From Mesobacillus jeotgali (GTDB taxonomy: Bacteria > Bacillota > Bacilli > Bacillales > Cytobacillaceae): DNA of 64,000 nucleotides. The stretch spans positions 1,437,444 through 1,501,443 of the forward strand of contig NZ_FVZC01000009.1 of NCBI RefSeq assembly GCF_900166585.1. Reading direction: 5' to 3'. Numbering within the stretch: the first letter of the stretch is position 1; each line of letters begins with the position of its first letter. The notes beneath the pieces were generated by a model. It had not been told where the DNA came from. It did not search any database and saw only the letters and a program-made list of their open reading frames with translations. Below are positions 23,662-59,481 of the stretch, piece after piece. The position numbers were made by a program, and so were the translations under genes.

Positions 23662-23735
23662 GTCCCAGTAGCTCAGCAGGATAGAGCAACAGTTTCCTAA
23701 ACTGTAGGTCGGGAGTTCGAATCTCTTCTGGGACG
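23662..23735 (+). tRNA. tRNA-Arg (anticodon CCT)
   Basis: The 74-nt gene folds as a cloverleaf: acceptor GTCCCAG/CTGGGAC, D-arm with AGCTCAGCAGGATAGAGC, anticodon stem CAGTT/AACTG with loop TTCCTAA (anticodon CCT, read AGG), and T-arm GGGAGTTCGAATCTCTTC. CCA is not encoded. It is a single tRNA unit with its own promoter and terminator. Confidence 0.95.
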
Positions 23736-55180: not shown

Positions 55181-55210
55181 ATGAAAGATATATTCAGGGA
55201 GATTTTATGA
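55181..55210 (+). CDS. Nine-codon upstream ORF overlapping the first corA
   Basis: ATG at 55181 follows TTAGGTGAGTATT and encodes MKDIFREIL. Its TGA overlaps the corA ATG in the form ATGA (55207-55210). The corA ribosome binding site (AGGGAGA) lies inside this ORF, so its translation should affect corA initiation. No peptide function is implied. Confidence 0.45.
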   Translation: MKDIFREIL

Positions 55211-56157
55211 TACGTACAATTTCTGTTAACCAATCAGGTCAGATTCAAACTGGCCAAACGATTCAATCATTAATTTCAGATAACAATCATTGGTATTGGA
55301 TTGATTTCAGTGATCCAACTGCGGAAGAAATCGACGTTTTGAGAGATCCGCTGAACTTTCACCCATTATCGATTGAAGATTGTATTCACACATTGCAGAG
55401 ACCAAAACTGGATTATTATGATGACTTTCATTTTTTTGTTTTTCAGGCATTGAATTCTGATTCAATGGAGAAGGAAGAAGTTGATTTATTTCTGGGAGCC
55501 AATTATATAGTCACTTTCCACAGTGAAAAAACACCTGAAATTGAAGAAGTCTGGAAGAGATTAGTGCTTTCCAAAACACCTAGTCAGTGGAATCCTTCAA
55601 TTGTTCTCTATCATGTACTGGATAAAATTGTAGATAATTATTTCCCGCATGTATATCGTATTGAGGATTTATTGAACGAAATAGATGAGAATTCAGCCGA
55701 CCGCTCAATGGAAGTACTGCTCGAGGATCTATTTGATACAAGGCATGAGCTTCTCTCGCTGAGGCATACCATTACACCAATGAGGGATTTGGTATACAGA
55801 ATGATTAACTCCCATCGTCTCTCTATAATTCTTGAGCAAAAAGAATATTTTGCAGATATCCATGACCATTTATTGAGATTAGCCGAAAAGGTCGAAGCCA
55901 GCCGGGAATTGACAACTGACATCCGTGACAGTTATTTATCGATGAACGCTCATGAAACAAACCGAGTGATGAAGGTACTTACTGTAATCACAACCATTTT
56001 CATGCCACTTACCTTCATTGCTGGAATCTATGGAATGAACTTTAAGAATATGCCCGAACTCACCTGGCAATTCGGTTATTTCGGAGCACTTTTTACTATG
56101 TTTGCCATCGGAATAACCATGTTTCTCTGGTTCAGGAAAAAGGGCTGGTTCAAATAA
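55207..56157 (+). CDS. corA: CorA-family magnesium transporter (first copy)
   Basis: The 316-residue protein has a soluble N-terminal funnel domain and two C-terminal helices with the selectivity signature IYGMNFKNMPEL between them. The end is FLWFRKKGWFK, the basic sphere of CorA. It conducts Mg2+ (or Co2+/Ni2+) as a pentamer. Its start overlaps a nine-codon ORF. A second, only distantly similar CorA is encoded 1.6 kb away on the other strand. Confidence 0.93.
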   Translation: MIRTISVNQSGQIQTGQTIQSLISDNNHWYWIDFSDPTAEEIDVLRDPLNFHPLSIEDCIHTLQRPKLDYYDDFHFFVFQALNSDSMEKEEVDLFLGANYIVTFHSEKTPEIEEVWKRLVLSKTPSQWNPSIVLYHVLDKIVDNYFPHVYRIEDLLNEIDENSADRSMEVLLEDLFDTRHELLSLRHTITPMRDLVYRMINSHRLSIILEQKEYFADIHDHLLRLAEKVEASRELTTDIRDSYLSMNAHETNRVMKVLTVITTIFMPLTFIAGIYGMNFKNMPELTWQFGYFGALFTMFAIGITMFLWFRKKGWFK

Positions 56158-56237: not shown

Positions 56238-56419
56238 TCGTTTGGTTTATCTTCCTCTTCATGCCGCTTAATGAAATCCTCTGCAAGGTTTTTGCTGCTC
56301 ATTATAAGGCCTGATAAAAAAAATGCTATGGTGGCTTCAAGTGATAGATAATGAAAGGACATCAGAGAAGAAGCAATGGTCCAAAGCAGCCACATATATT
56401 TTCCCCAATGATCAGCCAT
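56225..56419 (-). CDS. Small membrane protein coupled to the SpoIIP gene
   Basis: The ATG at 56419 overlaps the last codons of the SpoIIP gene and sits just after GAGGAGGTTA. The 64-residue product has two hydrophobic segments (MWLLWTIASSLMSFHYLSL and ATIAFFLSGLIMSSK) and a charged tail. The overlap and the shared terminator support a two-gene transcript. No family is recognised. Confidence 0.65.
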   Translation of the reverse strand: MADHWGKYMWLLWTIASSLMSFHYLSLEATIAFFLSGLIMSSKNLAEDFIKRHEEEDKPNERNH

Positions 56420-57542
56420 TAACCTCCTCCGCCTTCCAATAAATTTGGGAGATAGTTTCTGCTAATGCTTCCACTGTATTTTTTAACTCTTTCATATCAT
56501 TGTCGACCCCACCGACTTCAACCACGAGAGAATTTGAATGCAAGTCCTGATTATATATGCCATCGACACCTATACCTTTTTTCGGAAGAACTCCCTTGCT
56601 TAAGCCTGGATAATTTTCATTCAATATCTTATGAAGCTCATTTGCAAACTTGAGATTTTTTTGGAAGTTCGGGTTTTCTTCGCCAATGACAAAAACAATT
56701 CTTGCATAAGGTTCGTTATTAATCATTGTAGTCGTTGAATCCTTCCTGACGGAATCTCGATGCAGATCTATAAAGTATTCTAATTTCTCATTCCCTGCCA
56801 TTGCGCTTTGAACCAGGGAACGTGATATGTCATAAGACTTATGTGTTAGCCAGCCCTTTTTATCCAACTCCTTGCCAATATTGGTCTTATCCACGCTAGC
56901 GCCTACCCCGCGTTTTTCTAATTCATCTCCAAGTAATTCACCAACAATCGTGATGTTTGTCTTGCCATCTACAGCCTCATTTTCATTCTTCGCACCTTGA
57001 AGACCAAGCAATGGCAAGTAAGATTCCCAGCTATGGGTATGGTAAATGAAAACGGATTTTTTTGATGGAGAAGAACCGGAATAATTTTTACCGCTATTGA
57101 GCTCCTTCAGTTCCTTCGCTGCCATATTCCTTTCCTGCAACAGCTCATCCATTGGAGGAGCAGATTCAATCGGGATATCGGTAAAATCCACTCCTTCTTC
57201 TGCAATGATGAAGTTTGAGTCAAAGGCCATGAAACCCGGAATCTCACTTCTAATCAAGCTGCGGATGTCATTCATTTCTATGTTTGTCAGCAGTTTGAAT
57301 CCTGTAGAAAAAATAGGGTATTCTGCATTGGCCCCCGTTACAGCATGTCCTATAAGCGGATTCTCATAGCTAATGATGCGTAAGAAGACCTCTGCTCCAA
57401 TATCCCCATTCACCTTGAATTTAAAAAAGCTGATGTTGGATGAAGACAGAAGGCCTGCAACAAGAAACAAACTAAATGTGCTGATCAATATGATGAAAAC
57501 CATCATGGTCTTTCTGTATAGTTCAACAAATAGTTCAGCCAT
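56412..57542 (-). CDS. SpoIIP-family peptidoglycan hydrolase
   Basis: The ATG at 57542 follows AAAGGGTGATG. The ~376-residue protein has an N-terminal membrane helix (TMMVFIILISTFSLFLVAG) and the SpoIIP domain. Zinc ligand segments are VFIYHTHSWESYLP and FIDLHRDS, and the catalytic Glu lies in VVEVGGVDND. SpoIIP is an amidase and endopeptidase that thins septal wall during engulfment with SpoIID. The paralogue may be a secondary copy; the gene set around it gives no spoIID or gpr. Confidence 0.9.
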   Translation of the reverse strand: MAELFVELYRKTMMVFIILISTFSLFLVAGLLSSSNISFFKFKVNGDIGAEVFLRIISYENPLIGHAVTGANAEYPIFSTGFKLLTNIEMNDIRSLIRSEIPGFMAFDSNFIIAEEGVDFTDIPIESAPPMDELLQERNMAAKELKELNSGKNYSGSSPSKKSVFIYHTHSWESYLPLLGLQGAKNENEAVDGKTNITIVGELLGDELEKRGVGASVDKTNIGKELDKKGWLTHKSYDISRSLVQSAMAGNEKLEYFIDLHRDSVRKDSTTTMINNEPYARIVFVIGEENPNFQKNLKFANELHKILNENYPGLSKGVLPKKGIGVDGIYNQDLHSNSLVVEVGGVDNDMKELKNTVEALAETISQIYWKAEEVNG

Positions 57543-57625
57543 TCCATCACCCTTTTGCGTGTGATACGAATTCCAAAAGTGCACACCCTTTTAATCCATG
57601 AATATGTAAAAACAAAGATTTTAGA

Positions 57626-57803: not shown

Positions 57804-58742
57804 CTAAAAATATCTCTTTTTCCAGAAGATGAATGCAGTAATTCCCGCAAGGAGGACAGCCATACTGATTGCAAGAAAGAAGGCATAAGGATTGTGCTGA
57901 AATGGAAGATTAACGTTCATGCCATAGAAGCTTGCCACCATAGTAGGGAAAGAAAGGATTATTGTAATCGATGTCAAAAATTTCATCACCATATTTAGAT
58001 TATTTGAAATGATAGAGGCAAATGCATCCATCATCCCGCTCAAAATGGAACTGTATGTTTCCGCCATTTCAATGGCCTGAGTATTTTCAATGATTACATC
58101 CTCAAGTAAGTCTTTGTCCTCTTCATACATTTTCAAATAATTAAAGCGCATGATTTTAGCAAGGACGACCTTATTGGACTTTAATGATGTCGTAAAGTAA
58201 ACGAGACTTTTCTCAAGAGCAAGGAAGGCATACAATTCCTTGTTTTTCATTGACTGATGCAGCTCACGCTCTATTTCGTTCGTCTTTTTATTGATTTGTT
58301 TGAGATAGCGCAAATAGTAAATAGATATAACATAAAGGATCTGCAGGGCAAATCTCGTCTTCTTGAAAGTATAAAATTCCTTTACACGGTTGTTTCGGAA
58401 TTCCTCCAGTACTGGAGTTTCCTTTAAAGAAATAGTAATGATGCAGCTCGATGTCTGGATAATTCCCACTGGAATCGTCTCATAGATTGGAAATCCTGAT
58501 TCATCGTGGGTAATATACGGGTAGTCGACAATAATATATACATTGCCATCTTCCTTTTCAATGCGGGGACGTTCTTCATCATCAAGGGCGTCCCTGATAA
58601 AATCAACCGCAATCCCTGTTTCATTGGCTACTCTTGTAATTTCATCCTCTGAAGGATGAACCATATTTACCCAGCAGCCTTTGGTGATTTCTTCAACACA
58701 TGATAATTGTCTTTCTAAATCGCTTTTGAAGATTTCCAACAT
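57804..58742 (-). CDS. CorA-family magnesium transporter (second copy, with regulatory leader)
   Basis: The 312-residue protein has the CorA fold with FYGMNVNLPF between the two terminal helices and a KKRYF end. Its N-terminal domain (MVHPSEDEITRVANETGIAV, DDEERPRIEKEDGNVYIIVD) is of the Bacillus YfjQ-type subgroup. AGAGGAGG precedes the ATG at ideal spacing. That Shine-Dalgarno can be closed by an upstream hairpin, which in turn competes with pairing inside a leader ORF. Mg2+-responsive translation is therefore plausible. Confidence 0.93.
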   Translation of the reverse strand: MLEIFKSDLERQLSCVEEITKGCWVNMVHPSEDEITRVANETGIAVDFIRDALDDEERPRIEKEDGNVYIIVDYPYITHDESGFPIYETIPVGIIQTSSCIITISLKETPVLEEFRNNRVKEFYTFKKTRFALQILYVISIYYLRYLKQINKKTNEIERELHQSMKNKELYAFLALEKSLVYFTTSLKSNKVVLAKIMRFNYLKMYEEDKDLLEDVIIENTQAIEMAETYSSILSGMMDAFASIISNNLNMVMKFLTSITIILSFPTMVASFYGMNVNLPFQHNPYAFFLAISMAVLLAGITAFIFWKKRYF

Positions 58743-58965
58743 TTCGCCAACCTCCTCTTATTTTATAGAGGAAGTCAATTACCATTTTTCAGAGTTGATA
58801 GTCTTGTAGTATTCAATTGTATCAATTCTATTAGATTATCGACTTCCTCCCGCCTATCGGGATCAGGTTCTATTGAATAACCCAAAGATACCAACTCCTT
58901 CTTTTTTCACCTCTTACATCTTACTCCTGACTACATTAAAGTACAATGGATTTTTTCAATTATAC
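58743..58965 (-). promoter_or_regulatory. corA leader with mutually exclusive RNA helices around a short ORF
   Basis: A TATAAT lies at 58959-58964 (poor -35). Arm A (58838-58850, GGAGGAAGTCGAT) can pair over 13 bp, two of them G-U, with arm B (58767-58779, ATTGACTTCCTCT). Arm B can instead pair with arm C (58751-58758, AGAGGAGG), the corA Shine-Dalgarno, over 8 bp with an 8-nt loop. Arm A lies in codons 12-16 of the leader ORF and arm B covers its stop codon. A small hairpin (TCCCG/CGGGA) overlaps codons 8-13. The pairings are directly visible; the regulatory role is inferred. Confidence 0.6.
58775..58885 (-). CDS. Leader ORF of the second corA, 36 codons with an EPDPD run
   Basis: The TTG start at 58885 lies 9 nt after GAAGGAG. 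The product begins MGYSIEPDPDRREEVDN and continues with a leucine-rich, polar helix to KNGN. Its TGA is 30 nt before the corA ATG. Acidic/proline alternation near the N-terminus (E6-P7-D8-P9-D10) is the feature that destabilises translating ribosomes at low Mg2+ in enterobacterial MgtL. A 15-codon GTG ORF in another frame and an AUG-UAA lie just upstream and are less likely to matter. Confidence 0.5.
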   Translation of the reverse strand: MGYSIEPDPDRREEVDNLIELIQLNTTRLSTLKNGN

Positions 58966-59010
58966 AAGGTTCAAAAACTGTATTTTTGAGCTAAAGCCTC
59001 AAAAAGAAAC

Positions 59011-59039
59011 TTGACAATATACCCTCATAGGTATATAAA
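59011..59039 (+). promoter_or_regulatory. Promoter with internal inverted-repeat operator
   Basis: TTGACA (59011-59016), 17-nt spacer and TATAAA (59034-59039). The spacer and -10 contain ATATACC-N6-GGTATAT (59017-59036), a 7-bp inverted repeat. That is the position where a repressor blocks RNA polymerase. The ATACC/GGTAT half-sites recall CsoR/CstR-type operators, but this is not proven. Confidence 0.7.
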
Positions 59040-59082
59040 TTATATTAGTTACTTTTAGGGTATAAAAAGGAGGAAAATGATA

Positions 59083-59481
59083 GTGAAAAATATAATCACA
59101 AAATCTGTTTTTGCTTTTACACTGATTTTATCTTTGGTGGCTTTTGTTAGTTTTTCACAGCCAAAAGCCGAAGCTGCCACAACAGGCGCCGATGTATTGG
59201 TCACTGTCGGTCAAATGGGCGCTGATTCTTATTCCCAAACTTTAGACGGCGTTTTATATACAGTTGACTCAATTGGAATGATGGCTGACAGAATCTTGTG
59301 GACTCAACAAGAAATTGGCTTTATGGCAGACAGAATTGTTTATGTTACTGAATTCTCTCAGGATAACACAATAAAAGTGATTTACATGGCAACCGCTTTA
59401 TGGCCAACCGGCATGAATGATGGAGGATACACATACAAAGTTACCTTAATGCCTGTAGCAATGCTTCCAGCAGGCTGGTAA
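59083..59481 (+). CDS. Small secreted Met-rich protein with IGxMADRI repeats
   Basis: The GTG at 59083 is 9 nt after AAGGAGG (an ATG at 59077 is closer). The ~132-residue protein has a signal peptide ending PKAEAA. The mature part of about 100 residues contains the near repeats SIGMMADRILW and EIGFMADRIVY, a looser VGQMGAD, eight Met, and the terminal MLPAGW. I do not recognise the family. Repressor-type promoter architecture suggests tight induction. Confidence 0.75.
   Translation: MKNIITKSVFAFTLILSLVAFVSFSQPKAEAATTGADVLVTVGQMGADSYSQTLDGVLYTVDSIGMMADRILWTQQEIGFMADRIVYVTEFSQDNTIKVIYMATALWPTGMNDGGYTYKVTLMPVAMLPAGW

Follow-up and report, generated by a model that had tools for sequence, protein, structure and literature searches.

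A Conserved Leader-Peptide RNA Element Upstream of corA in Bacilli and Its Probable Response to Mg2+

The corA gene of Mesobacillus jeotgali is preceded by what is, almost certainly, a real and conserved leader-peptide RNA element. This element probably answers Mg2+ by way of ribosome destabilisation and turns corA on when Mg2+ is low. Comparison with relatives argues for its main parts, namely a leader ORF with conserved coding, three helices, a narrow distance from the peptide motif to the RNA arm A, and a link to Mg2+ genes. We also lean, with distinctly less assurance, towards a wider reading, in which the leader is a Bacilli-wide Mg2+-control RNA whose sensor is a destabilised nascent peptide and not an aptamer, which is interchangeable with the M-box and independent of the enterobacterial leaders, and in which DUF1003 proteins serve Mg2+ homeostasis. 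If this is true, Mg2+ sensing through ribosome stability has been used more than once; the literature found on such sensing concerns Salmonella and E. coli, as far as the passages drawn on here go. No leader device of this kind in Bacilli was among the literature matches listed, which were mostly open-access papers.

The Leader at the Mesobacillus jeotgali Locus

The features of the locus are collected in Table 1; the window is the whole stretch of 64,000 nucleotides that was analysed. The gene downstream of the leader is predicted to encode the Mg2+ transporter CorA, and the best solved chains for its product, 4cy4 and 4ev6, are both named magnesium transport protein CorA. A sequence-only reading had described a leader ORF with an EPDPD run, an arm A, and an arm B that can pair either with A or with the corA Shine-Dalgarno (arm C). 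On inspection of the window sequence, every one of these features was found on the minus strand where that reading had placed it. Both alternative pairings of arm B are present, A:B with 13 pairs (two of them G-U) and B:C with 8 pairs (one G-U). The model of three arms was incomplete, however, as it had overlooked a further helix, P1, which is predicted from base pairing to close the Shine-Dalgarno of the leader itself. GGAG stands nine bases upstream of the TTG start at 58885; of the 87 distinct upstream regions, 86 show a GGAG-like pattern ahead of the leader start, and L036 has GGGG instead. In the fold predicted for the A-to-AUG stretch of this locus, a possible arm D would pair with the 3' arm of P1 inside the A:B hairpin.

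Table 1. Features of the corA leader in the window
Feature	Position	Strand	Basis or remark
Leader Shine-Dalgarno, AAGGAG	58895..58900	-	window sequence
P1 5' arm, GAGTTGGTA	58889..58897	-	overlaps part of the leader Shine-Dalgarno
Leader ORF, 36 codons, TTG start, MGYSIEPDPDRREEVDNLIELIQLNTTRLSTLKNGN	58775..58885	-	window sequence and frame conservation
Codons E6-P7-D8-P9, motif of ribosome-destabilising type	58859..58870	-	conserved in leaders
E6-P7-D8-P9-D10 run	58870-58856	-	window sequence
Arm A, GGAGGAAGTCGAT	58838..58850	-	complementary to arm B
Possible arm D, TTGATA	58820..58825	-	predicted in the minimum-energy fold of the A-to-AUG stretch of the window
P1 3' arm, TATCAACTC	58792..58800	-	alignment pairing and shuffle test
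Arm B, ATTGACTTCCTCT	58767..58779	-	alternative partners: arm A or arm C
Arm C, AGAGGAGG, the corA Shine-Dalgarno	58751..58758	-	window sequence and B:C alignment
corA, 312 aa, GMN motif	57804..58742	-	PF01544, E 6.8e-58

When Rfam 15 was run over the window, the sole match above the gathering score was a tRNA at 23662-23735; the region 58600-59250 gave six matches at E<=10, all of them far below the gathering score.

The neighbourhood holds a second CorA-family gene (55207-56157, plus strand), whose protein carries GMN...MPEL. The two CorA-family genes share a span of less than 3.6 kb and are separated by a SpoIIP-domain gene (56412-57584). Divergent from the leader, a gene on the plus strand (59077-59481) encodes a 134-aa protein without Pfam match, with a start that, judged by eye, resembles a signal peptide.

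Conservation of the Leader ORF

Relatives were sampled through corA. The genus gave 18 full-length loci, including that of the window, and one cut locus; the wider set consisted of 80 named loci, the best 80 of 270, from Mesobacillus, Neobacillus, Peribacillus, Cytobacillus, Metabacillus, Priestia, Geobacillus, Anoxybacillus, Thermolongibacillus and Bacillus spp. The 98 usable loci were reduced to 87 distinct upstream regions, and L019, which ends at a contig end, was left out of the ORF count on these. Two loci of the sample, titled Chryseobacterium sp. ISL-80 and Pseudomonas sp. ISL-84 (L020, L069), have a Bacillaceae-like corA and leader and are probably mislabelled.

All 87 regions contain an ORF whose first 25 codons include [DE]P[DEG]. 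The same search found it in 0/87 reverse complements and in 2-7/87 of each of five dinucleotide-shuffle sets. With the strict pattern [DE]P[DE]P, 83/87 regions are retained versus 0/87 reverse complements and 0-2/87 per shuffle set. Finer counts were made on 95 leaders: L208, without an in-frame ORF, and L203, which is misaligned, were excluded from the coding, P1-shuffle and folding counts, and the antisense row of L158 was kept out of the coding and geometry counts and retained in the 98-row covariation tests of A:B. The leader frame stays open to near arm B in 91/95 leaders and the other two frames in 0 and 1, in a count for which leader starts were selected such that the leader frame extends to arm A.

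A filter for the motif was passed by 85/95 leaders, with the residues E44/D41, P85, D48/E35/G2 and P77/T4/S3/G1 at positions 1 to 4; the filter itself constrains positions 1 to 3 in part, but not position 4. The third bases of the motif codons use all four letters, i.e., they are free. The remaining ten leaders have sequences such as DDPRP, DNPLP, DLES or GESD. The motif is thus conserved at the amino-acid level, in the form E/D-P-E/D-P. Because of this coding conservation, the leader ORF is counted as translated. Early acidic residues together with Pro are what leaders of the MgtL and mgtQ type contain as well, as far as sequence can tell. The expectation that relatives would keep the ORF and its acidic and proline codons is thus borne out, with weaker forms in a minority.

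Pairing and Covariation of the Helices

For 56 leaders aligned with MAFFT, P1 and A:B were evaluated together. The share of paired cells is 90.7% for P1, 85.9% for A:B and 87.9% for the two jointly, the last versus 35-52% when the arms are slid. Their covariation score is.223 versus.170 (sd.008) after shuffling, a value attained in 0/500 shuffles. For single leaders, the strength of P1 lies at or beyond the best 5% of dinucleotide shuffles in 81/95 and below it in 14. The sequence of P1 diverges widely and the arms stay paired; for example, L090 of Geobacillus pairs GGCGUUUUCGUAU with AUACGAAAACG, and L194 pairs CAUUUUUAUG with CAUAAAAAUG. L171 and L189 have a minimal form of 131 nt, with arm A immediately next to the 3' arm of P1.

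A:B was evaluated further in 98 model-aligned rows, for which the covariance model itself contained no A:B pairs. It is paired in 84.6% of cells versus 42-54% when slid by 1-3 columns, and its covariation score is.248 versus.192 (sd.009; 0/500 shuffles). For the five pairs of A:B that have no part in B:C, the values are 67.1% versus 21-44%, and.357 versus.254 (sd.022; 0/500 shuffles). Two further measures, double-change pairs and further pair types, are those of the tool least prone to error from relatedness. Neither rises above shuffles for P1 with A:B in the 56 leaders (100 and 172 of 500), for A:B in the 98 rows (85 and 82 of 500) or for the five A:B-only pairs (282 and 175 of 500). Since these two measures resemble shuffles, A:B rests on kept complementarity and on single double changes. 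In the core of A:B, G-C is replaced by A-U in L164, L187, L191 and L195, so that L191 pairs GAGAAAG with CTTTCTC, and a further double change occurs in L236 (GAGGGAGTC with GGCTCCCTC).

B:C is paired in 99.2% of cells versus 57-75% when slid. Because B:C barely varies, its covariation score does not stand out clearly from shuffles (38/500); its two double-changed pairs are above most shuffles (1/500). Thus both complementarities of the earlier reading are kept in relatives. The compensatory changes it had called for are present in A:B and few in B:C, which is nearly invariant. RNAalifold, run on the A-to-AUG stretch of 32 leaders, predicted B:C alone and no A:B. A swap test gave a modest result: the own partner was the strongest in 8/19 leaders for P1 and in 5/19 for A:B, with mean energies of -17.7 versus -11.9 and -15.1 versus -12.8, respectively. 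As predicted from sequence, the helices would be mutually exclusive, with one of them closing the corA ribosome binding site, as in mgtQ-type leaders.

The ORF could instead encode a small protein that acts in its own right, beside arms that arose by chance. Its N-terminal part is indeed conserved as a peptide. The arms persist, however, among leaders that differ in length, stop, C-terminal part and frame, and we give this explanation practically no weight. In L208 and L236 the reading frame at arm A is shifted and the arm is still present; therefore, the arm is kept as RNA.

Spread, Downstream Genes and the Link to Mg2+

A covariance model (R1) built from the 56 leaders was used to follow the leader-peptide RNA element through the taxonomy. 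At E<=1e-3 it matches 115 of 193 genomes and 13 of 25 genera of the family. In the same 193 genomes, corA is found in 116 at E<=1e-60, and 114 are common to both lists. The two genomes with corA and without leader (G062, G067) have a corA of 42-43% identity with an M-box upstream, and the one with leader and without full corA (G162) has a partial corA match (residues 115-219, 90%). Within the genus, G001 and G020 lack this corA and also the leader. In the cases compared by eye, the model match ends at or a few bases from the corA start. In the order, 89/397 genomes and 35/135 genera match at E<=0.01, the weakest matches being partly chance. In the class, 13/398 genomes match, three of them outside the order: G574 has the leader before corA, G607 has it before DUF1003, and G860 looks like chance. 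These counts are lower bounds, because searches over more than 40 genomes used stricter filters, by which weak matches are lost.

Downstream genes were typed in 60 regions, 56 from order matches and four from family matches. A corA homolog follows in 52/60, G162 counted, and a DUF1003-type protein in 4/60 (L194 by Pfam; L196, L198 and L199 by eye). With L236, DUF1003 proteins, which are of a membrane protein type, stand behind the leader at five loci. L202, L204 and L205 (E>1e-3) have neither a corA match nor a recognised leader and look like chance; the same applies to L237 (E 5e-4). Two loci are unusual in arrangement. In L190 (G453), leader and corA are split just inside arm C by an insertion, whose gene presumably is transposase-like. 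In L209 (G111), two model matches lie 41 nt apart before one corA, with apparent extra leader sequence and a corA start about 100 bases later than usual.

The M-box (RF00380) had been named as the known riboswitch to exclude. Covariance scans gave no M-box match at or above the gathering score in the window, and none was found in the 21 genomes of the genus that were searched, so that it is excluded at this locus. Elsewhere the two elements meet. In G248 and G203, a 160-bit M-box ends 46-47 nt upstream of the leader, both standing before one corA. The two tandems, at L176 (36-204 and 251-433) and L184 (minus strand, 1331-1499 and 1101-1283), each have a GC-rich hairpin between M-box and leader. 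Mutual exclusion of the two elements in the family was not seen: the M-box occurs in 24/193 genomes, the leader in 115/193, and both in 12 versus about 14 expected. Typing of 20 M-box regions gave 5 CorA-like, 1 DUF1003, 7 MgtE and 7 untyped genes downstream, and the DUF1003 protein behind an M-box (L229) is 69% identical to that of L194. Since M-box and leader both precede corA and DUF1003, they serve overlapping gene families. The tandems and the common gene families point to Mg2+ as the signal, and they suggest a role of DUF1003 proteins in Mg2+ homeostasis. The element would thereby tie DUF1003, a domain of unknown function according to Pfam, to Mg2+; no paper joining DUF1003 and magnesium was found in the literature searched, mostly open-access.

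The same switch might answer another signal: pausing at Asp-Pro or Pro codons could report the activity of EF-P/YfmR or the supply of charged tRNA-Pro. In B. subtilis, overexpression of YfmR relieves stalling at Asp-Pro, according to the part of the paper drawn on here (PMC11381351). A sensor of Pro starvation, however, would not need the acidic residues, which are kept like the first Pro, although the filter in part dictates positions 1 to 3; the second Pro is replaced by T, S or G in 8/85 leaders. M-boxes, too, precede the gene families that this leader serves. On balance a signal other than Mg2+ appears quite improbable.

Geometry and Predicted Switching

The distance from the last Pro before arm A to the core of this arm is 12 nt in 55 and 15 nt in 25 of the 94 leaders with such a Pro; ten of the other 14, read by eye, carry one more Pro or another residue in place of the second Pro. 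Arm A begins 36-48 nt after the leader start (95 leaders), and the distance from arm A to arm B is variable, at 40-83 nt (95 leaders, L203 excluded). The start of arm A would thus lie near the leading edge of a ribosome paused at the motif. For E. coli mgtL, the portion of PMC11282234 used here describes a toeprint, obtained with EttA present, that matches a ribosome whose P site holds the first Pro of EPDP.

From these features the following order of events is proposed. Without leader translation, both Shine-Dalgarno sequences would be shut, the leader's by P1 and corA's by B:C, and corA would be off. When Mg2+ is plentiful, full translation of the leader would cover and pass arm A, B would stay with C, and corA would again be off. 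At low Mg2+, ribosomes would drop off or pause at E/D-P-E/D-P and leave arm A free; it could then pair with B, release the corA Shine-Dalgarno and turn the gene on. The Mg2+-dependent drop-off, the direction of the switch and a translational rather than transcriptional output are what we infer here. Taken together, comparison with relatives favours the interpretation that the sequence-only reading had offered.

Folding calculations agree with the switch between A:B and B:C in part. With A left free and all sequence before it made unavailable, 58/95 leaders have an open corA Shine-Dalgarno (>0.5), with 0.96 for the window, and 37/95 remain at <=0.5. When arm A is unavailable as well, 0/95 have it open (window 0.0006). 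A scan of the P site in 45 of the 95 leaders, with upstream sequence masked, gave an open corA site in 40-58% when the P site was 15-24 nt before A, in 13% at 12 nt and in 0% at 9 nt; for the window, openness is 0.96 at 15 nt and 0.05 at 12 nt. The span of 15-24 nt is the position of the motif. Once P1 is free to form, nested folding gives an openness above 0.5 for the corA site in 3/95 leaders without a ribosome, in 5/95 with a ribosome at the motif and in 8/95 with a ribosome one codon earlier, and a single ribosome on the motif with upstream sequence unmasked gives a mean openness of 0.09-0.12. The switch is thus reproduced in about six of ten leaders if P1 is disrupted, but not in nested folding with P1. 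According to these calculations, the model would require either disruption of P1 or a pseudoknot of P1 and A:B, which is possible since the two helices cross.

The output might alternatively arise by translational coupling, in which a ribosome that reaches the end of the leader would unwind B:C around the stop codon and pass on to corA. Complete leader translation would then turn corA on, and abortion at EPDP would lower it. In nested folding, a ribosome over arm B does open the corA site in 86/95 leaders, and the leader ORF ends 11-41 nt upstream of corA in 84/87 regions; in the other three (L041, L094, L097) it runs into corA, which counts against coupling. Coupling needs no arm A, yet the A:B complementarity is conserved, and it would raise an importer with Mg2+, contrary to the M-box in tandem. 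M-boxes lower expression at high Mg2+. Coupling is therefore judged unlikely.

An effect of arms and motif on transcription, through a terminator or Rho, has its precedent in mgtL and corL of E. coli and Salmonella, which work through Rho in the passages of PMC11552253 used here. At the present locus, no terminator-like site was seen on the leader strand between 58400 and 59400, and arm C is the corA Shine-Dalgarno itself; we regard a transcriptional output as very unlikely. About a hundred natural variants of the leader are at hand for testing which early residues destabilise ribosomes.

Comparison with Known Systems

The M-box resembles the leader in its overlapping gene families and in its tandem arrangement with it in two genomes. 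It differs in being an aptamer and is without match in this region of the window. The aptamer of the M-box binds the ion directly.

The enterobacterial leaders are compared here from the passages of the cited papers that describe them. MgtL of mgtA in E. coli likewise has EPDP near its N-terminus, and drop-off at low Mg2+ raises the transporter (PMC11282234), as would be the case for the Bacilli leader. Unlike the latter, it has the motif at residues 2-5 and not 6-9, its output is through Rho termination, and its transporter is of another class (PMC11282234). The corL leader of E. coli and Salmonella also stands before a corA, and its efficient translation lowers corA (PMC11552253), which we would expect of the Bacilli leader too; corL has fewer acidic and Pro residues than mgtL and is Rho-dependent (PMC11552253).

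By analogy, the element may work most like mgtQ-mgtB of Salmonella. There, too, a short translated ORF has early acidic codons that are reported to destabilise ribosomes, and alternative helices (1:2 and 3:4 versus 2:3) close or free the downstream ribosome binding site (PMC8092293). A Mg2+ transporter lies downstream, and the output is translational (PMC8092293), as it probably is for the Bacilli leader. The two differ in that mgtQ is an ORF of 8 codons with Asp2 and Glu5 inside an enterobacterial operon (PMC8092293), whereas the Bacilli leader stands before corA or DUF1003 and has, in P1, a helix predicted to close its own Shine-Dalgarno.
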